A DNA stretch of 22,229 nt from positions 1-22,229 of IMG/VR virus record IMGVR_UViG_3300042519_001398, one strand, 5' to 3'. This DNA is from a virus. The notes beneath the pieces were generated by a model. That model saw only the letters and a list, made by a program, of their open reading frames with translations, ran no database searches and had not been told where the DNA came from. The position numbers and the translations under genes are program-made. Positions 2,907 through 21,724 of the stretch are shown in pieces. Every line of letters begins with the position of its first letter. Within the stretch, counting starts at the first letter, position 1.

Positions 2907-3330
2907 GAATTAATGATACGAGCTCTCGCAGTGTCAGGCGAACTAAAATGTCGCTATTGGTCTCTAGGTAAGTCCTTAAATATATCAGATCGCTGAGCTT
3001 AGCATAAGCCCACCATTCACCGGCTCGGGGGTACCCAACACCAGAGCGCTGAGTAACAAGAAAACCAAACTTGCCATCAGCATTAATTTTTTCAGTTTCG
3101 GCCTCTTCATACCATTTCCTTATTTGTTCGTGGCTGGCATCTTTAGCGGACTTCCCGCCTTTGATTTCAAATACAACAAGACCATAGCTTTCACGTAGCC
3201 AAACATCTCCTTCATCGGCTGATCCTTTCAATACGTTACGGTGAGCTGTCATTGGATCATAGCCAACTGACAAAAGGTAGTTTCTAACAGCAGTCTCGGC
3301 ACGTGTGCCAATGTCTTTGGATTTACTCAA
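2899..3330 (-). CDS. PD-(D/E)XK nuclease, Holliday-junction-resolvase-like
   Basis: 143 residues from a TTG at 3330. The frame extends upstream to a TTG at 3378, but I prefer 3330 because AGAGAGGGAG lies six bases before it and a promoter (TTGTCT, 17 bp, TAGAAT) ends just upstream. The PD-(D/E)XK core is visible: E12 in GTRAE, D42 in EGDVW, and E55-x-K57 in FEIKGG, followed by a helix with an HEQ segment. The small single-domain form resembles archaeal and phage Holliday-junction resolvases and VRR-type nucleases. It directly precedes terL, a common place for nucleases that help resolve or trim packaging DNA. The nuclease fold is fairly sure; resolvase activity is inferred. Confidence 0.78.
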
Positions 3331-3342
3331 GAGTGTCTCCCT

Positions 3343-3378
3343 CTCTGGTATTCTATTAGTTATGGGCTTTTCAGACAA
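3343..3378 (-). promoter_or_regulatory. Promoter for nuclease-terL-portal block
   Basis: On the minus strand TTGTCT (3378-3373) is followed after 17 bp by TAGAAT (3355-3350). The predicted start near 3343 leaves a short leader that begins at the GAGGGAG ribosome-binding site of the TTG start at 3330. Confidence 0.45.
3349..3361 (+). promoter_or_regulatory. Candidate -10 for a leaderless tail-fibre transcript
   Basis: TATTCT at 3349-3354 is followed by seven bases and then the ATG at 3362. This places a typical transcription start at or one base before the A of the start codon. There is no ribosome-binding site on the plus strand here. The -35 region is weak. The box shares its base pairs with the minus-strand TAGAAT. 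Confidence 0.35.
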
Positions 3379-4711
3379 TATACAACCAACATATCAGGAA
3401 ATTAAGGAACTTCACCTTAATTCTGATGTTGACGAAAATCCGCTTGCTATCCATCATACACTAGGCGCCCGTCCAAATCAGGCTAGTCCTGGAGATCACA
3501 CGCATGATGGTAAAACGTCTAAAAAAATACAAGCTACCGACATTCTTGGCTTAGCAGAGATGACTGGACCAGCTGGGCCGACTGGGCCAACTGGTCCAAC
3601 TGGCCCTACTGGACCGACTGGACCAGCTGGGCCCACAGGAGCTACTGGGGCTGACTCAACTGTACCTGGCCCAGCTGGACCGACTGGACCAACTGGCCCT
3701 ACTGGTCCCATCGGGCCTACAGGTCTAACTGGACCTACTGGTCCAAAGGGTGATACTGGAGACACTGGCCCTCAAGGCATCCAAGGTATCCAAGGTATTC
3801 AGGGTATTCAGGGTGAGATAGGAACTGGTGGTGCACTAGGTCACTACGGGTCTTTCTACGACATGACTGACCAACCGCTTGCTTCAGTTTCAGCAGCTCA
3901 GGTTATTGCAATTGGCACAACCGCAGAAGCTAACGGTGTAAGCATCGTCAGCGGGAACAGAGTAACCTTTTCAAATGCTGGAACTTACAGCATGACGTTT
4001 TCGATTCAGGTTACTAACTATGCTAACTCTGTACAAAAGGCAATTTTTTGGGTAAAGAAAAATGGAGTTGACTACCCAGACTCAGCTACCGAGATTGATC
4101 TGCAGCCACGTAAATCTGCAGGTATCCCTAATCGCCAAGTTATAACAATTAACTACGTAGCAACAGCCGCGGCGGCTGATTACGTTCAAGTTTTCTGGGC
4201 TGGAGATAGCCTAGATCTGCAGGTTGAGGCTTTGCCTGCTGGAACCTCTCCAACCTACCCAGCCGTACCTTCCATTATTTTGACAGCCGTGCAGGTTATG
4301 TACACTCAGGCTGGCCCTACTGGTCCCGCTGGTCCTACTGGTCCTGCAGGTCCAACTGGTGATAACGGTGAGGCAGGCATTGTATTCCAGACTGGTCCCC
4401 CGACAAGCACCGAGGTTTTATGGGTAGACACAGATGAAACTGCAATTGAAATTCCATCTGGCGGAACAGCTGGTCAAGTCCTAGCAAAGGTAGACGCTAC
4501 CGACTTTAATACGGAGTGGGTAGATGTTGATATTGATGCACTTGATGATCTAGTGGTGGCAAGCACTTTCCCCATCAAGCTAAACCTGCAAACCATCTCA
4601 GCTAACTACGCTATCCCAGCAGGCTATAATGGACTTAGCGCTGGACCAATCACAATCGCCAGCGGTGTTATAGTCACAATCCCTACTGGGTCTTCTTGGA
4701 GCGTTGTTTAA
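3362..4711 (+). CDS. Collagen-like minor tail/fibre protein
   Basis: 449 residues from ATG 3362. The frame is open further upstream, but that extension mirrors the nuclease gene and lacks a start signal. The N-terminus holds the A-I-H-H-T-L-G-x-x-P-N-Q-A-x-x-G-D-H-T-H-D-G signature known from actinophage minor tail proteins, probably the part attached to the tail. Residues about 69-156 are a Gly-X-Y collagen-like rod (GPT/GPA triplets, then GIQ repeats). A beta-rich globular domain fills about 157-315, a second short collagen segment about 317-339, and a C-terminal region ends in [11 protein letters not shown], a typical trimeric fibre end. It is expected to trimerise and take part in host binding. 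It abuts the next gene with no gap. Confidence 0.85.
3566..3829 (+). repeat. Collagen-like Gly-X-Y coding repeat
   Basis: Nine-base periodic DNA encoding Gly-Pro-Thr/Ala triplets, interrupted once by an ADSTVP insertion, then by [10 protein letters not shown] and finally a short run of GIQ triplets. Shorter copies of the same pattern occur at about 4312-4378 in this gene and 6825-6882 in the collar-fibre gene. The codon repetition makes length change by slippage or recombination plausible. Confidence 0.9.
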
Positions 4712-14425: not shown

Positions 14426-15175
14426 TCAGATCAATGACGAGGTGTCATTGTCTGTTTGCTCATAGCGTCGGCAACTAAAGCAGAAGCCTGCCTTAGGTGC
14501 CTTGTCTATGACTTTCTCCCAACCCACCAGCTCAGCAGCATCGATCATCGATTCGAGCTGTGCCAGTGATTCGAGAGCAAGATTTTGGTTATAACGTAGA
14601 AGTACTACTTGAGCTTCTTCTAGTTTTCCTTCGCGTGGTAAAAATGTTAGTGATACGTGCGTAACGTTGTAGCCCTTCTGCACCCATCCGTAGCCGTACA
14701 ACATTGCTTGTACTCGGTACTGATCTTTGATCTTACCTCGGGCCGCATCTGCTAGAGCTGTCTTACCAACAACCTTCCAATCATTTACAACTCCGGTCCA
14801 ACCAGCGTTGCCGGTCGATGCGTACATGTCGCATGATCCTGAGAGTTCAAGATTCTTGTAGCTGTGTACGTGCAAACGATTCTCAAGTAAGTAATCAAGT
14901 GGCCAGCGCTCGCGAAAGCCGTGCTCAAGTGCATCATGTACTGCCGTACCAATAAACGGATACCATGCACCATCAGGATTGCGAGGTGTAAGTGCGAGCT
15001 TGCGAGCGATGCACTTCTTGCAGTCCATGCCAACTTCGCTGATACCAATTTGGATCTGCTTAGATCTCTCAGAAATAAATAGCTCTGGGATTCTTCTCAT
15101 CCATGTATGTGCAGTCTCGATTGCTTTTGCATCGGTACTGTCTTCAACACTGTCAATCAGTTTTACTGTTGCCAA
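14426..15175 (-). CDS. Cas4/RecB-like PD-(D/E)XK exonuclease with cysteine pairs
   Basis: 249 residues from a TTG at 15175, six bases after AGAGGAGG; no ATG is better placed. The nuclease core shows H80 in G-T-A-V-H-D-A-L-E, D116 in G-S-C-D-M, D132-W-K134 in V-V-N-D-W-K, and Q152/Q156 in the Q-Y-R-V-Q-A-M-L-Y motif of RecB-family enzymes. C52-x-x-C55 near the N-terminus and C232-x-x-C235 near the C-terminus could hold an Fe-S cluster or zinc, as in Cas4 and AddB. The expected activity is 5' end resection for recombination, with the downstream SSB-like protein as partner. No CRISPR array or other cas gene is present. Confidence 0.86.
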   Translation of the reverse strand: MATVKLIDSVEDSTDAKAIETAHTWMRRIPELFISERSKQIQIGISEVGMDCKKCIARKLALTPRNPDGAWYPFIGTAVHDALEHGFRERWPLDYLLENRLHVHSYKNLELSGSCDMYASTGNAGWTGVVNDWKVVGKTALADAARGKIKDQYRVQAMLYGYGWVQKGYNVTHVSLTFLPREGKLEEAQVVLLRYNQNLALESLAQLESMIDAAELVGWEKVIDKAPKAGFCFSCRRYEQTDNDTSSLI

Positions 15176-16667: not shown

Positions 16668-16863
16668 AATCTCTCTCCAATTTCGATTCGTATGAGTCTG
16701 CTATGTCTTTTGATAGGTATGTCAGTGTCTGAATATATTTGTCATGTGTCATGTCTTTGGTACCTCGAGCCGATTCAAAAAAATCAAGCGCATCCATCAG
16801 TCCAAAGATCCAAGCGTCGTGCTCTTTGTCGGTATCTAAATACCTTGGTTCTAAGTTAGGCAT
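16309..16863 (-). CDS. Small acidic N-domain protein overlapping the helicase gene
   Basis: 184 residues from ATG 16863, with GGAG five bases upstream and an 8-bp overlap with the whiB stop, so it is probably translated. Residues 1-65 look like a genuine acidic helical domain (D-A-W-I-F-G-L-M-D-A-L-D-F-F-E). From about residue 66 on, the frame runs inside the 5' 359 bp of the helicase gene, and the translation turns into an Arg/Ser/Asp-rich, disordered-looking tail with scattered cysteines. The tail may be non-functional read-out. I found no family for the N-terminal part. A fusion with the helicase by frameshifting is not supported. Confidence 0.6.
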   Translation of the reverse strand: MPNLEPRYLDTDKEHDAWIFGLMDALDFFESARGTKDMTHDKYIQTLTYLSKDIADSYESKLERDFGIDLSGSTLPLSKRSRDADGKATQDTISRSARAGEDTRGAGVIRASGSIQPERQQRDTYTHTSCECKDGVDRHDRTVCDAPLPERSGYRFIQWLQRKEAGETKFGTRRRGYPTDNCCS

Positions 16864-17158
16864 TCTTACTCCATATCTCTTTACGATCGTTGTAGCTCAT
16901 GCCACCCCATATGCCATCTTCTTCTCGATGTCTGATTGCATATGTTGCGCACATCTTTAGTACTGGACACTTCTGGCATGCTTTCTTTGCCATCTTTGCA
17001 TCCATTGCAGCTGTTCCGGTGCCTCCCTCAGGGAAGTATAGGTCCGGTGCTTGTCTGCAAGGTATTTGCCCTGCTACATCATCAATTGCATTGTTCAGGT
17101 CGAGCCATTCGCGCATCTGTTGATTGACGCTGTAGTTCCTAGCTTTCTGTACTCCCAT
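16856..17158 (-). CDS. WhiB-family Fe-S transcription regulator
   Basis: 100 residues from ATG 17158; an ATG three codons upstream (17167) has a ribosome-binding site directly against it and is less likely. The four cluster cysteines are present (C34 in I-P-C-R, C61-x-x-C64 and C70 in A-C-Q-K-C-P-V-L-K-M-C), and the G-I-W-G-G-M turn follows with a basic end (N-D-R-K-E-I-W). WhiB proteins bind a [4Fe-4S] cluster and contact domain 4 of the primary sigma factor; they are confined to Actinobacteria and their phages. A phage copy in the early region would be expected to redirect or block host transcription, as shown for WhiB of mycobacteriophage TM4. It is coupled to the next gene by an 8-bp overlap. 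Confidence 0.95.
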   Translation of the reverse strand: MGVQKARNYSVNQQMREWLDLNNAIDDVAGQIPCRQAPDLYFPEGGTGTAAMDAKMAKKACQKCPVLKMCATYAIRHREEDGIWGGMSYNDRKEIWSKNA

Positions 17159-17357
17159 TTTCTTCATCCTCTTTCTTTAGCCATGTGTAATATTCATCTG
17201 GTAGGTATTCGTTGGGTCTACCGTAGTAAGATCCTTCGATGGTCGCGCAGAACAAACATAAGATCTGGTCGCGATGTATAACGGTGTCTTCGCCTTTGAT
17301 TATTTGATCGCAGGACATGCATAGATAGTTTTCATTCTTGTGAGTCAAAGTACTCAT
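17139..17357 (-). CDS. Small zinc-ribbon protein
   Basis: 72 residues with the start taken at ATG 17357 (M-S-T-L-T-H-K-N); an upstream in-frame ATG at 17399 lies inside the previous gene. Two CxxC pairs (C-M-S-C and C-L-F-C) are about 20 residues apart with a G-E-D-T-V-I-H segment between, a typical zinc-ribbon. The C-terminal end is acidic. AAGGA lies about 11 bases before the start. It overlaps the upstream gene by 26 bp and whiB by 20 bp. Function unknown; small zinc-ribbons in phage early regions often bind host transcription or repair proteins. Confidence 0.68.
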   Translation of the reverse strand: MSTLTHKNENYLCMSCDQIIKGEDTVIHRDQILCLFCATIEGSYYGRPNEYLPDEYYTWLKKEDEENGSTES

Positions 17358-17871: not shown

Positions 17872-18245
17872 CAGTGAACCGTCAATCGAGTCTTGTTGAT
17901 TCGTTTGTATAGTTCAGGGTACTCAGCTATCGGGAATGTTTCTTTCACCGTGTCGGTGATCAGCGATGTCTCGCGCCACCTTGCGATGCTTGCAACCCTC
18001 GCGCCGTGAATGTGTAGCTCATCGTTGCTACCAATCATGTCCTTGATAATGGCGTCAACTTCTTTGAGCTCATCCTCAAGGCGTTTCTTGGCATCGTAAA
18101 GCGAGCTACGCTTGGCAAGTAGTTCATTCGCTAGCGTTAGATCTGCTGGCTCAGCTACCTTTACCTTAGCCTTAGACTCCTTAGGCTTGCTAACTAACTT
18201 GGACTTGGCCTCGTCAATTAGATCTCTAGTAGTCGTTGTTTCCAT
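17871..18245 (-). CDS. Hypothetical protein with coiled coil
   Basis: 124 residues from ATG 18245 behind GAGGAATC. Residues about 35-70 are heptad-like and charged (A-K-R-S-S-L-Y-D-A-K-K-R-L-E-D-E-L-K-E-V), a likely coiled coil. The C-terminal half contains L-H-I-H-G-A-R-V-A-S-I-A-R-W-R and P-E-L-Y-K-R-I-N-K-T-R-L-T-V-H. Phage proteins with such a coiled-coil plus short beta module often sit near recombination exonucleases, but I do not recognise a defined family. It overlaps the previous gene by 28 bp. Confidence 0.72.
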   Translation of the reverse strand: METTTTRDLIDEAKSKLVSKPKESKAKVKVAEPADLTLANELLAKRSSLYDAKKRLEDELKEVDAIIKDMIGSNDELHIHGARVASIARWRETSLITDTVKETFPIAEYPELYKRINKTRLTVH

Positions 18246-18616
18246 GATTCCTCTTCTTTGTCATATTCATGTATTACCGGTGCGTACTCAGGTAGGTCAG
18301 TTATAAATTGAGCTATCCGAGCTGGTACCTTGTCTCTAGTTATAAAGTCAAGGGCTACCCATTCATCATAGTCGGTGAGTGGGTAATTGTTGATATACAG
18401 GTCATCAAGTAGGTACTCGATCTCTGCAATGTCTTCTGGTGCGGTGAATGTAATGCTGTGATATTTACTGCTGTTGGTCTGGATGTTGCTAGTTCCAAAC
18501 GATCCTGCGAAACTCAGCTCATAAGCCGTGAGCGTTATGCTTCCATCCGCCTGCGACCAAACGTTGAAGTCATAAGCTGACTCCAAGCCGAGCTCTCTAA
18601 TTAGTTGCTTGTTCAT
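18218..18616 (-). CDS. Hypothetical acidic protein
   Basis: 132 residues. The start is taken at ATG 18616, directly after GAGGAAGAAT; an in-frame ATG at 18628 would overlap that site. Sequence is mixed alpha/beta: F-N-V-W-S-Q-A-D-G-S-I-T-L, then acidic (I-A-E-I-E-Y-L-L-D-D-L). No cysteine motif, membrane segment or recognisable fold. It overlaps the gene before it by 20 bp and the one after by 28 bp, in keeping with the tightly packed early operon. Confidence 0.7.
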   Translation of the reverse strand: MNKQLIRELGLESAYDFNVWSQADGSITLTAYELSFAGSFGTSNIQTNSSKYHSITFTAPEDIAEIEYLLDDLYINNYPLTDYDEWVALDFITRDKVPARIAQFITDLPEYAPVIHEYDKEEESWKQRLLEI

Positions 18617-18872
18617 ATTCTTCCTCATCTCTGTAGTCTTCGTGCCATAGATCTTTCGCTAGGCACCATGGGTGGTAGAAACCGAGCTCATATCTATCCC
18701 TGACTTCTGCATCAAGGTAAATATCTTTTTCGCAACTCTCGCATTCATAGCCCGAGCATTGAGCGCAGGCCCATCCATCATCGTATCCAATACGGTTCAC
18801 AAACCTGCCGTATCCGAACGCTGTACTCTCTCCACAATGTGCGCATGGATCGATAATTATTTTCTTGGTCAT
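18597..18872 (-). CDS. Small multi-CxxC zinc-finger-like protein
   Basis: 91 residues from ATG 18872 behind GAGGAGGAATC, one of the strongest ribosome-binding sites here. CAHC, CAQC, CESC and a later W-C-L give at least two metal sites, arranged like a LIM- or RING-type double zinc-ribbon. The last 20 residues are acidic. Function unknown; with four cysteine pairs in 91 residues it is most likely a protein- or nucleic-acid-binding adaptor. Confidence 0.76.
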   Translation of the reverse strand: MTKKIIIDPCAHCGESTAFGYGRFVNRIGYDDGWACAQCSGYECESCEKDIYLDAEVRDRYELGFYHPWCLAKDLWHEDYRDEEEYEQATN

Positions 18873-18882
18873 GATTCCTCCT

Positions 18883-19185
18883 CTATTTTATTCTCTGTAT
18901 TACTTGCTCATCTGGTTCGCTATCAAGCGTGATTCTCCAGAACTCCGGTTCCTCAAGGCTAGCTAAACTCAGATCGCTTGCCTCATGGATGACGTAAAGG
19001 TAATTACCAAACACGCCAGTGAAATAGCCGTGGTACTCAGCAATTTGCAACAAGCTCAGCATCGAGTTGTCGGTGCCAAAGTGCCGAGTCATTTTCTTTA
19101 TTGCTTTTTTTAGTGATCTCTCAGTGGTGCTAGATAGCTTTACTGTTATTACTTCTGGTGCTATCCGTGGGTCAAAACCTCTCAT
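18883..19185 (-). CDS. Hypothetical protein
   Basis: 100 residues from ATG 19185 with GAGGAGG eight bases upstream. The N-terminal half is basic and helical (T-E-R-S-L-K-K-A-I-K-K-M-T-R-H-F), the C-terminal half acidic with aromatic residues (Y-F-T-G-V-F-G-N-Y-L-Y-V-I). I do not recognise a family. No cysteines or membrane segment. Ten bases separate it from the next gene, and 24 from the one before. Confidence 0.7.
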   Translation of the reverse strand: MRGFDPRIAPEVITVKLSSTTERSLKKAIKKMTRHFGTDNSMLSLLQIAEYHGYFTGVFGNYLYVIHEASDLSLASLEEPEFWRITLDSEPDEQVIQRIK

Positions 19186-19209: not shown

Positions 19210-19449
19210 TCAGTTGGTAGTATCACTTGTCAAGTATTTTATTAGCGTGTCTTGGTCCATGCCTCCGGTGAGTCCCTTGCGATCAGGATACTCGACGACG
19301 ATCGCATAGCGTCCCTTGTGAGTCTTGCTGGGTTGGATGTAGAGCTCAACATCAGGCTTGCGATACTTGGATACCCCAGCCGTGCTGTTGATCTCCTGCC
19401 ATCCGGTCTTGGATAGCGCTTCAATGAGTCTCTGGGTCAACTTAGCCAT
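19210..19449 (-). CDS. Hypothetical small protein
   Basis: 79 residues from ATG 19449, overlapping the stop of the HTH gene by one base (TAATG), with GGAC just upstream. The pattern is strand-rich: W-Q-E-I-N-S-T-A-G-V-S-K-Y-R-K-P-D-V-E-L-Y-I-Q and Y-A-I-V-V-E-Y-P-D-R. The Y-A-I-V-V-E-Y end resembles small dsRBD- or toxin-like folds in layout only. It is the partner gene of the HTH protein in an apparent two-gene module; a toxin-antitoxin link is possible but not supported by any motif. Confidence 0.68.
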   Translation of the reverse strand: MAKLTQRLIEALSKTGWQEINSTAGVSKYRKPDVELYIQPSKTHKGRYAIVVEYPDRKGLTGGMDQDTLIKYLTSDTTN

Positions 19450-20054
19450 TAGTCCAACTTACTTGGTGGCACTTCGCCGACCGGTAGCTCGATGATCTCT
19501 TGATCAGTGATCTCATGGCCTCTGACTTGTGCTACTGCCTTGCGCATCGCGAAAGTAATGCTAGGCCAGAATCTTAGGGGATCCTCAGCTCGCATCTTAT
19601 AGAATGCAGACTTAGGGTAGAGCTCATCCAGATCTTCGCCGGTGCTAAGTTTCCATAGCTCAACTTGCCACTTGCGCGTGTCTCCATATGGATCTTTCCA
19701 TCCAGATTGATCAGTGAACCATGTATACCATTTTGTCCAAGCGTTGCGCGTAGTGATCTTCGAGAGCTCGTCTAAGTACTCCTTGCGCTGTCCAACTGCA
19801 GACTCGTTCACTAGCGGTGTCGCGATTGACTCAGGGCCTCCGATATATTCCCATTCTGATCCGCCGTTGATCTCAATGTAAGCATCAACATCAGACTTGC
19901 GATACCAACTCGTGCCTCCCTGCCTAACGAATTTGATCGGGGATGTCTCTGGTTTGGTCCTCTGGTTGCGTAGCTGGTTCATGGTGAAGCCGGTCAGATC
20001 CGAGACTTCTCTCGATGTCAAAAGCTCACCGTATTTGGGGTGATAGGTGCTCAA
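19449..20054 (-). CDS. AlpA/excisionase-like HTH protein with C-terminal extension
   Basis: 201 residues from a TTG at 20054, five bases after AAGGAG. Residues 10-60 match an HTH_17/excisionase-type winged helix: L-L-T-S-R-E-V-S-D-L-T-G-F-T, then S-W-Y-R-K-S-D-V-D-A-Y-I. Such domains occur in Xis, AlpA and small phage regulators. The remaining 140 residues are Trp-rich (W-T-K-W-Y-T-W-F) with no known fold. It is the first gene of the long minus-strand early unit, directly behind a promoter and a repeat (TAGTAGGTAAGTAG) that could be its own binding site. Regulator is the most likely role; no integrase is present. Confidence 0.76.
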   Translation of the reverse strand: MSTYHPKYGELLTSREVSDLTGFTMNQLRNQRTKPETSPIKFVRQGGTSWYRKSDVDAYIEINGGSEWEYIGGPESIATPLVNESAVGQRKEYLDELSKITTRNAWTKWYTWFTDQSGWKDPYGDTRKWQVELWKLSTGEDLDELYPKSAFYKMRAEDPLRFWPSITFAMRKAVAQVRGHEITDQEIIELPVGEVPPSKLD

Positions 20055-20188: not shown

Positions 20189-20210
20189 TGTTTTCCAATT
20201 GAGCTCCTAA

Positions 20211-20267
20211 GAAAAACACTTACTACTTACTAATCTACTACTTAGCCGATTAGTAAGTAGTAAGTGT
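20211..20267 (-). terminator. Terminator with 20-bp perfect inverted repeat
   Basis: Arms 20216-20235 and 20248-20267 pair perfectly over 20 bp around a 12-base loop. On the minus strand the stem is followed at once by TTTTTC, a U-tract, so it should end transcription of the five-gene operon 33 bp after its last stop codon. Each arm is itself two tandem TAGTAAG/CTTACTA heptamers plus flank, an unusual internal structure that could also bind a protein. Confidence 0.7.
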
Positions 20268-20299: not shown

Positions 20300-20713
20300 T
20301 TATCCGTAGACGATCTCTCCGAATAGCCCAACTTGAATGATCACGTCGAGAGCTTCGTCGTTTATGTATCCATAATCAAGTCCCTCAGCAAGGTCCTGAG
20401 CAATACTCCTCCGGATCGCTTCGTTGACTTGGGTTGTTTTGTTCAATACGCGTTCGATACCCTCGATTATTGTATTGACGGTGATCAAGTACCATATGTC
20501 ATCCGCTAGGACTTCAAATTGGTACCAGTTGCGGTGCCCAGACTCATCCGGTAATCCGCGTTTTGCGTTTCTACTCGCTTCGCTCCAATAGGCAATAGCG
20601 CCTCCGTCATAAGCGGTGTCAACTAGGCTAATTAGGCTAGAGACCAACACTCCTTGACGGATCTTCAGTGCCACTGTATCGGTTGGGAATAGTACTCTTT
20701 GTGCTGTTTGCAT
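20300..20713 (-). CDS. Hypothetical protein, last gene of five-gene early operon
   Basis: 137 residues with the start taken at ATG 20713, seven bases after AGAGGAAAA; the frame stays open to 20884, but that extension runs through two other small genes and has no ribosome-binding site. It holds an A-Y-D-G-G-A-I-A-Y-W pattern near residue 35, resembling actinophage proteins with an EGG-xxYW motif, and a helical, hydrophobic second half (I-W-Y-L-I-T-V-N-T-I-I-E-G-I). Function unknown. TAA of the microprotein gene overlaps the ATG by one base. Confidence 0.74.
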   Translation of the reverse strand: MQTAQRVLFPTDTVALKIRQGVLVSSLISLVDTAYDGGAIAYWSEASRNAKRGLPDESGHRNWYQFEVLADDIWYLITVNTIIEGIERVLNKTTQVNEAIRRSIAQDLAEGLDYGYINDEALDVIIQVGLFGEIVYG

Positions 20714-20811
20714 TAGTTTTCCTCTTTCTTTAGATATGTCCAAATTACTAGGGTTGCGCATAGCGCAAGTAGTGTGAATAGTATACTCATCGCTACTGTG
20801 TAGAAGATCAT
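20713..20811 (-). CDS. 32-residue single-pass membrane microprotein
   Basis: ATG 20811, stop TAA 20715-20713. The sequence starts MIFYTVAMSILFTLL, continues A-L-C-A-T-L-V-I-W-T-Y-L and ends K-K-E-E-N, so about 24 hydrophobic residues are followed by a charged tail: one membrane helix, probably with the tail inside the cell. AAGGA lies 10 bases upstream, and one-base overlaps (TGATG and TAATG) tie it to both neighbours. It could act on the host membrane, or as a holin/antiholin or anti-defence peptide; the sequence does not decide. Confidence 0.7.
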   Translation of the reverse strand: MIFYTVAMSILFTLLALCATLVIWTYLKKEEN

Positions 20812-20972
20812 CAGTTATCTTCCTTAGTCCATGTCCATCTAACCTTGTAGCCGGCTCTCTCGAATCCCTCAACCGTTGATCCAATTGGGATCGTGGTTGG
20901 CAGGGTTGCTAGTACTTGATCAGTGCCTTCTTCAATGATCGTGAATTGACTATATCCTTCTGGTGTTTTCAT
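20811..20972 (-). CDS. 53-residue hypothetical protein
   Basis: ATG 20972 behind GAGGAGGAAAAC, stop TGA 20813-20811. It starts MKTPEGYSQFTIIEEG, has a strand-turn-strand look (Q-V-L-A-T-L-P, then S-T-V-E-G-F-E-R-A-G-Y-K-V-R-W-T-W) and ends T-K-E-D-N. A small beta-sheet domain is likely. Both ends overlap neighbours by one base. No family recognised. It is real by spacing, ribosome-binding site and the lack of any other gene in this stretch. Confidence 0.72.
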   Translation of the reverse strand: MKTPEGYSQFTIIEEGTDQVLATLPTTIPIGSTVEGFERAGYKVRWTWTKEDN

Positions 20973-21325
20973 TAGTTTTCCTCCTCATAACTGTCGTCGC
21001 AAGCGTTGCAGGATTTTTCATTATCCAGACAAAAAGTGCAGATAATCTCCTCCGCTTCAGTGATCCAAGCGTCTAGGTGGTGCGCTTCGATCAGGTTGCG
21101 AGCTGGTGCGGTGGTGTTGCCTCTCCAACTGATACCCTCAGGCAGATCGATCTCACGTGCAAGATCGTCATCCCAATAGGCGTCGATGGCTTCGATGCAC
21201 GGTTGGACCATGCTTAGTGGTACTGGTGGATAGTGGTTGCTTCTCAGGTGAATTGCCAACTGGTCCGCTAGGGTAATTGTGCCTAGTGTGCCATCAGCTA
21301 GTTCGTGCGCGAAATTGCTTCCCAT
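20972..21325 (-). CDS. Conserved actinophage-type small protein with C-terminal CxxC
   Basis: 117 residues from ATG 21325 with AGAGGAG upstream. H-L-R-S-N-H-Y-P-P-V-P, A-I-D-A-Y, L-P-E-G-I-S-W-R-G-N-T-T-A-P-A and I-E-A-H-H-L-D-A-W-I form a pattern I associate with early-region proteins of actinophages; no function is established to my knowledge. The C-terminus adds C-T-F-C and C-N-A-C, a probable zinc site, and an acidic E-E-E-N end whose codons serve as the next ribosome-binding site. Confidence 0.78.
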   Translation of the reverse strand: MGSNFAHELADGTLGTITLADQLAIHLRSNHYPPVPLSMVQPCIEAIDAYWDDDLAREIDLPEGISWRGNTTAPARNLIEAHHLDAWITEAEEIICTFCLDNEKSCNACDDSYEEEN

Positions 21326-21615
21326 TAGTTTGTCTCCTCTGTTTTGTATAGTTCCGCATATGCGCGGGTTGCTAGATCGTAATAGTAATTGAATAGATCA
21401 ATACCCATTAGGGAATAGATCGTTGAGTCAGGCGCGACTCCGTACTCTTGCCAAGTATCTTTGTACTCAGCATCTAGATCGGTCCACTCCTGAAGGATCT
21501 CACTGTAATAGATCGGGACTAGGCCATCTGCATATTGGTGCAGATCGTCTTCAGGGTAATCGTGTCCCTGAAAGGGTGCCAGACCCTCCTTGATATCTTC
21601 GTAATCGGTTAGCAT
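21325..21615 (-). CDS. Hypothetical acidic protein, first gene of five-gene early operon
   Basis: 96 residues from ATG 21615 behind GAGGAGATAAGA. Strongly acidic and rich in Tyr (Y-Y-S-E-I-L-Q-E-W-T-D-L-D-A-E-Y; L-F-N-Y-Y-Y-D-L-A-T-R-A-Y), largely helical, without cysteine or membrane segment. High acidity and small size fit a DNA-mimic or protein-inhibitor role, but this is only a possibility. It is the promoter-proximal gene and probably the most abundant product of the operon. Confidence 0.72.
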   Translation of the reverse strand: MLTDYEDIKEGLAPFQGHDYPEDDLHQYADGLVPIYYSEILQEWTDLDAEYKDTWQEYGVAPDSTIYSLMGIDLFNYYYDLATRAYAELYKTEETN

Positions 21616-21665
21616 TCTTATCTCCTCTATTTGCTTAGCCGGCGGGGTTGCTAGCTAATAAGTTC

Positions 21666-21724
21666 ACTCTAATAGTCGGTTAGTCGATTAGTCAAGCATA
21701 TTTTTATAACGGTTTGATAACGGT
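21666..21724 (-). promoter_or_regulatory. Repeat-rich promoter of the five-gene early operon
   Basis: On the minus strand TTGACT (21695-21690) and TAGAGT (21671-21666) lie 18 bp apart. Between and across them TAGTC occurs three times at 8-bp steps (21673, 21681, 21689 on the plus strand). Upstream of the -35, ATAACGGT occurs twice at an 11-bp step (21706-21713 and 21717-21724). Both look like protein-binding sites. Confidence 0.6.

Follow-up and report, generated by a model that had tools for sequence, protein, structure and literature searches.

Five small genes in a phage genome fragment rather probably make up an early, promoter-proximal operon of standardised coupling junctions that join interchangeable small accessory genes, with g1, whose product is Ocr-like, at its head. 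The phages that carry this operon are uncultured and apparently actinobacterial. The DNA analysed here, which we call the window, is a full IMG/VR record of 22,229 bases and represents a fragment of a tailed phage. On its minus strand the open reading frames g1 to g5 lie head to tail, with a one-base overlap between every stop codon and the ATG that follows; judged by their conservation in other phages, all five are real genes. The anatomy of the four junctions (here called seams), their excess uniformity and the turnover of genes with breakpoints at or near them are observed directly. The parts of the operon in window coordinates are as follows.

21616 to 21700, minus strand: leader with a promoter-like site (TTGACT ... 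TATTAG) and the ribosome site GAGGAG before g1, from the sequence.
21325 to 21615, minus strand: g1, 96 amino acids, putative Ocr-like anti-restriction protein at the head of the operon (PHROG 2568 and T7 Ocr profile).
21323 to 21341, minus strand: seam 1, g1/g2 junction, exact sequence CAGAGGAGACAAACTAATG.
20972 to 21325, minus strand: g2, 117 amino acids, with a conserved core from residue 1 to about 90 (IHLRSNHYPPVP) and here an extra Cys-rich C-terminal tail, from alignment.
20970 to 20988, minus strand: seam 2, g2/g3 junction, exact sequence ATGAGGAGGAAAACTAATG.
20811 to 20972, minus strand: g3, 53 amino acids, accessory gene with homologs in L295 and L316.
20809 to 20827, minus strand: seam 3, g3/g4 junction, exact sequence CTAAGGAAGATAACTGATG.
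20713 to 20811, minus strand: g4, 32 amino acids, one membrane helix predicted by eye, with relatives in A, B, C and D.
20711 to 20729, minus strand: seam 4, g4/g5 junction, exact sequence AGAAAGAGGAAAACTAATG.
20300 to 20713, minus strand: g5, 137 amino acids, PHROG 2355, last gene of the operon, with homologs in Streptomyces camviruses, for example Amela gp71.

The preliminary description of this DNA had aligned four 19-nt minus-strand junctions, at 21341-21323, 20988-20970, 20827-20809 and 20729-20711, and these match letter for letter. Each contains a Shine-Dalgarno sequence within the final codons of the upstream gene and a one-nucleotide stop/start overlap (TAATG or TGATG), the site being of the GAGGA type and lying a few nucleotides ahead of each operon ATG within the upstream reading frame. 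A 16-mer derived from the seams, with up to three mismatches allowed, finds all four junctions and one other site in the window, a count reached by none of 100 shuffles; since this pattern was drawn from the data itself, an internal comparison is the better test.

The relatives in which the operon was followed are all metagenome contigs. Four of them, A (IMGVR 3300042445_002584), B (3300042307_000516), C (3300032222_000314) and D (3300032299_000677), share the leader with the window, and A is identical to it over 89 nt spanning the promoter and the start of g1; the -35/-10 reading of this leader was made by eye and marks a candidate promoter. L295 (F, 3300032307_000122), L298 (H, 3300043436_001565) and L316 (3300034108_000621) are more distant. 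The order in the window, g1-g2-g3-g4-g5, has a second instance in 3300043438_001804 (99.96% identical). The other orders are g1-gX-g4-g4b-g5 in A, g1-g2-g4-g5 in B and C, d0-d1-g2-d3-g4-g5 in D, f1-f2-g3-f4-f5-f6-f7-f8 in L295, g1-f2-h3-f4-[homolog of window gene 18628-18218]-h6-f5-h8-h9-f7-f8 in L298 and f2-g1-m3-g3-...-f8 in L316; most arrangements come from one contig each, and such single-contig arrangements may be chimeric assemblies. Among near-identical phages, then, g3 is missing, g2 and g3 are together replaced, or a gene is gained before g5. Missing from A, B, C and D, g3 has homologs in L295 (51%) and L316 (67%) with other neighbours, so that it is found between three different neighbour pairs. 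The gene after g1 is g2, gX, f2 or m3, and the order of f2 and g1 is inverted between L298 and L316. The preliminary description had named, as the outcome that would speak against shuffling, related phages with an invariable set and order of genes; what the relatives show is gain, loss, replacement and one reordering at the seams.

Two genes of the neighbourhood may be mentioned here. Directly downstream of the operon (19449-20054, minus strand) lies a gene whose conserved product of 201 aa weakly resembles phage DNA-binding proteins; this gene anchors the locus in relatives wherever the contig reaches it. The window gene at 18218-18628 (minus strand) has its homolog within the variable operon of L298 (40%, E 4e-22), which implies that the gene has passed between the accessory operon and the early region downstream of it.

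At seam 1 the next gene differs in A and the preceding gene differs in D; a near-identical counterpart of seam 2, TATGAGGAGGAAAACTAATG, links two other genes in L295; homology between the window and A picks up again at seam 3; and just upstream of the seam 4 site A has an additional gene that retains the g4 tail. Homology ends at the ATG or in the seam when g1/g2 is compared with g1/gX, g3/g4 with gX/g4, g3/g4 with g2/g4 (window and C), d1/g2 with g1/g2, f2/g3 with f2/h3, f5/f6 with f5/h8, g3/f4 with h3/f4 and f4/f5 with h6/f5. At most turnover sites the alignment breaks within a few bases of the ATG. Several breakpoints are exceptions, with 20-45 nt between them and the start codon downstream; for the insertion point in A the distance to the g5 ATG downstream is about 27-30 nt, and in the leader D and the window diverge tens of bases ahead of the start.

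The uniformity of the seams was measured over the 14 bases preceding TAATG or TGATG. In the window their mean pairwise identity is 9.3/14, and letter-shuffled window seams give a mean of 5.4/14 with a maximum of 8.5 in 20,000 trials. In the relatives the means of operon seams span 5.5-11.3/14. For B, C, D, L295 and L298 they are 7.7, 9.7, 9.3, 9.0 and 5.5, as against 3.8, 3.8, 4.7, 4.5 and 4.2 for one-nucleotide-overlap junctions outside the operon, and permutation of the labels gives p = 5e-5, which is the floor for 20,000 trials. The possibility, raised in the preliminary description, that the seam is no more conserved than other ribosome sites of the phage does not hold for the other one-nucleotide-overlap junctions of the same phages. 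The overlap itself is concentrated in the operon: of 36 operon junctions taken from seven phages, 29 have it (the remainder include 4-nt overlaps), versus 40 of 221 same-strand pairs elsewhere (Fisher p 3e-13), the latter count being approximate, as non-operon genes were called by a simple script that misses very small ones. The same script supplied the outside junctions for the 14-base comparison. The comparison of junctions inside and outside the operon was made first with hand-listed junctions and then repeated with called genes. The lower uniformity of L298 (5.5/14) and the few seams in L316 imply that the standard junction is characteristic of the window and its close relatives.

What such a junction could do follows from its anatomy, that is, a stop/start overlap of 1 or 4 nt with the Shine-Dalgarno sequence inside the upstream gene, which is what translational coupling calls for. 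We infer reinitiation at the seams, selection for coupling and selection for intact neighbours. With the Shine-Dalgarno sequence in the last four or five codons and a stop that shares a base with the next ATG, a terminating ribosome would restart on the downstream gene. Every gene would then supply the ribosome site of its successor and would itself need nothing but a bare ATG at its front, and insertion, removal or replacement at a seam would leave the neighbouring genes unharmed. Selection for coupling would make the junctions uniform; the breakpoints would fall there mainly since these are harmless places, retained by selection for intact neighbours, and short homology possibly helps. Reinitiation at 1-nt and 4-nt overlaps, often dependent on an intragenic Shine-Dalgarno sequence, has been demonstrated in E. 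coli and Haloferax (PMC6728339). The seam shares with these overlapping genes both the stop/start overlap and the Shine-Dalgarno sequence in the upstream gene; termination-reinitiation is a general phenomenon, whereas here a near-identical sequence recurs along one operon.

Of the two readings that the preliminary description had offered, selection for tight coupling accounts for the junction sequence itself. The other, a microhomology seam through which small early genes are shuffled as cassettes, stands as far as turnover at the seams is concerned, while microhomology as the route is not established. In its fuller form this second reading makes the seam a recombination boundary, at which 14-30 bp of common sequence would let an annealing recombinase or host recombination swap, delete and insert genes, with gene flow keeping the seams alike; we regard this as somewhat unlikely. 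Several observations do point towards it. The window and C share 151 identical nt in a row, beginning precisely with the ATG of g4 and reaching 53 nt into g5, on a background of about 80% identity downstream of the seam. Further long stretches of identity, again in diverged pairs, begin 7, 6 and 6 nt before an ATG, and these overlap as evidence, the g2 start being common to three phages. D and the window have unrelated genes before g2 and agree at 18 of 19 seam bases, and the window encodes an exonuclease (14429-15175, PHROG 1674, E 4.5e-41). The 3' end of g4b in A is the same 30 nt as that of the window's g4, which places the insertion point in A within the g4 tail. Against it, junctions with no seam are equally mosaic (f2/h3 and h3/f4 in L298, and most of L316), breakpoints 20-45 nt from the start lie off the seam, the homology is short and often imperfect, and no annealing protein was identified. 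Moreover, only events that leave genes intact survive in a packed operon, so that breakpoints at gene starts are expected from that alone. The narrower proposal that the coupling junction serves at the same time as a patch for recombination, with anti-defence genes exchanged singly by short homology and the hybrid junctions translated at once, is in our view likewise doubtful.

Precedents for exchange at gene boundaries exist. The seam is like the boundary (linker) sequences of lambdoid phages (Susskind and Botstein 1978; Clark et al. 2001 for HK620), which, as summarised in PMC3029335, are short conserved junctions where gene content changes: it is a conserved sequence repeated between unrelated genes, and gene content differs exactly at it, save for the exceptions given above. 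It differs from them, going by the same summary, in that the boundary here is a ribosome site with a stop/start overlap inside coding sequence and is repeated along one operon. The cluster I mycobacteriophages Island3 and Brujita offer a likeness to g4b and g4 of A, in that an inserted small gene repeats the C-terminal codons of its upstream neighbour; Island3 gp68 and gp67 share 18 C-terminal residues, and recombination between gene-end repeats of about 50 bp has been proposed (PMC3029335). That is one case with repeats of about 50 bp, whereas here there is a series of junctions.

The reading of the seam as a plain convergence of ribosome sites, in which a strong Shine-Dalgarno sequence and a one-nucleotide overlap are alike by function and turnover is unrelated, we consider improbable. 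It would fit the uncoupled early genes of the window, which share a site of the GAGGAGGAA type (for example caagaggaggaaaacATG at 19185), and it would fit a scan of viral contigs, in which the seam motif gave at least 119 matches and a control with permuted spacers 115, both mostly at ORF junctions. This near-equality also speaks against the recombination boundary and against the idea that the motif is peculiar to this group of phages, and the bare motif is not diagnostic. Convergence is at odds, however, with the heterogeneity of other one-nucleotide-overlap junctions, where the in-frame [E/K]-E phase is found in 0 of 36 and AAC before the stop in 2 of 36, each being present at 14 of 26 such junctions in the operon, and with breakpoints that fall on seams in most comparisons.

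Two named phage elements were considered and set aside. The start-associated sequences (SAS) of cluster K mycobacteriophages are similar in that, in the account of PMC3203893 available to us, an AGGAG repeat lies a few bases before the ATG of many unrelated non-structural genes of actinophages, and the upstream stop codon is sometimes inside the SAS. Their definition in that account holds no fixed one-nucleotide overlap and the account as available describes no gene swapping at them. The 13-bp SAS consensus GGGATAGGAGCCC is absent from all the operon ribosome sites listed, which excludes that the seam is a cluster K SAS, and no extended inverted repeats of the SAS kind were seen at the operon. 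The PeSL cassettes of T4-type phages (Arbiol 2010; Comeau 2014), as reported in PMC4503421, likewise set a short regulatory sequence between small variable genes and are associated with modular shuffling. They are described there as an early promoter and stem-loop in intergenic space, and the one-nucleotide overlaps at the seams leave no intergenic DNA, so that a PeSL can be rejected.

The preliminary description had further read the junctions as writing a common acidic C-terminus on four unrelated proteins. The endings are as claimed (EETN, EEEN, KEDN and KEEN), but they are no feature at the protein level: the embedded ribosome site, GAG GAN xxx AAC TAA, when read as codons in one frame, yields the acidic C-terminus as a side effect. 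This reading rests on three observations. In L295 the protein F2 ends in ...TTLELEEAN with a seam after it, and its homolog H2 in L298 ends in ...TTLEL with a separate ribosome site after it. In A the seam GAGGAAAGGAAGACTAATG between g4 and the extra gene is intact, although g4 runs through it in a different frame and has its end, WTYIEERKTNGN, past the seam; the nucleotides are therefore conserved and the peptide is not. Ahead of TAATG the base is C in most cases, for AAC (Asn) and TGC (Cys) codons alike. That selection acts on the acidic peptide, for example as a degradation or localisation signal, with the nucleotide pattern secondary, would suit the E/K-E-x-N common to four different proteins, and is nevertheless very improbable, given a tail that comes and goes with the seam, its out-of-frame retention in A, the fixed GAG-GA codons, and the operon-final genes g5 (ending in EIVYG) and f8, which have neither seam nor acidic tail.

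As to what the operon encodes, g1 matches PHROG 2568, 'ocr-like anti-restriction', with E 1.6e-5 (8e-7 for the homolog in C) and the T7 Ocr chains by profile with E 1.3e-3 over residues 5-96. It has homologs in L298 (H1) and in L316 and is, by eye, strongly acidic. Its predicted structure is all-helical at low confidence (pLDDT 61), and Foldseek returned no match to the model with E <= 0.001. At the right end of Streptomyces phage Amela (NC_028904.1, L301) a homolog of g5 and a gene annotated as OCR-like antirestriction are two genes apart, which suggests that this pairing is widespread in actinophages. Together, the Ocr-like matches of g1 and the proximity in Amela make it likely that the operon consists of early anti-restriction or accessory genes, the function being judged from sequence similarity.

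The g2 product is predicted to be well folded to about residue 90, with pLDDT < 50 in the tail, and its model has no fold match in the PDB. The Cys-rich tail (CTFCLDNEKSCNAC; 20975-21048, minus strand) is missing in 15 of 15 aligned relatives. It probably came in together with the insertion of g3, since it starts at the position of the seam in B and C. A fusion to an f4-like gene (L295/L298) was rejected, with p 0.5-0.7 versus shuffles when the YEEEN end common to both was left out of the comparison, and no source of the tail was found.

The operon is closed by a long inverted repeat downstream of g5, ACACTTACTACTTACTAATC ... GATTAGTAAGTAGTAAGTGT (20190-20265, minus strand); in the same place L298 has a different sequence with an equally good stem, which gives the impression of a terminator or regulator site that has undergone compensatory change.

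The terminase of the window phage is 41% identical to Arthrobacter phage terminases, and a WhiB-type regulator (16856-17167, minus strand; Pfam Whib E 2.8e-17) supports an actinobacterial host. A scan of GTDB genomes with g2 was discarded as a route to the host: it yielded two MAG contigs with conflicting labels (Methylophilaceae and Actinomycetota), probably misbinned viral DNA. Megablast of the operon region against phages gave no match, no relatives in isolated phages were found for g2, f7 or the downstream DNA-binding-protein-like gene, and an exact search with the promoter yielded no relatives besides those already known. The tail region encodes a protein with long collagen-like Gly-x-y repeats (GPTGPTGP...; 3305-4711, plus strand).

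How tiny early phage genes are reassorted without damage to the expression of their operon has long been asked, and two explanations compete: illegitimate recombination followed by selection, and short boundary sequences. Since natural phages that are almost identical differ in this locus by a single gene swapped at a defined 19-nt junction, experiments could tell the two apart. The locus also carries a warning, namely that C-terminal residues held in common may be a disguised ribosome site. Many tiny early phage genes probably act against host defences. As a practical rule, the seam flags a hypervariable accessory locus, here headed by an Ocr-like gene, and thus a place in which to seek anti-defence candidates.
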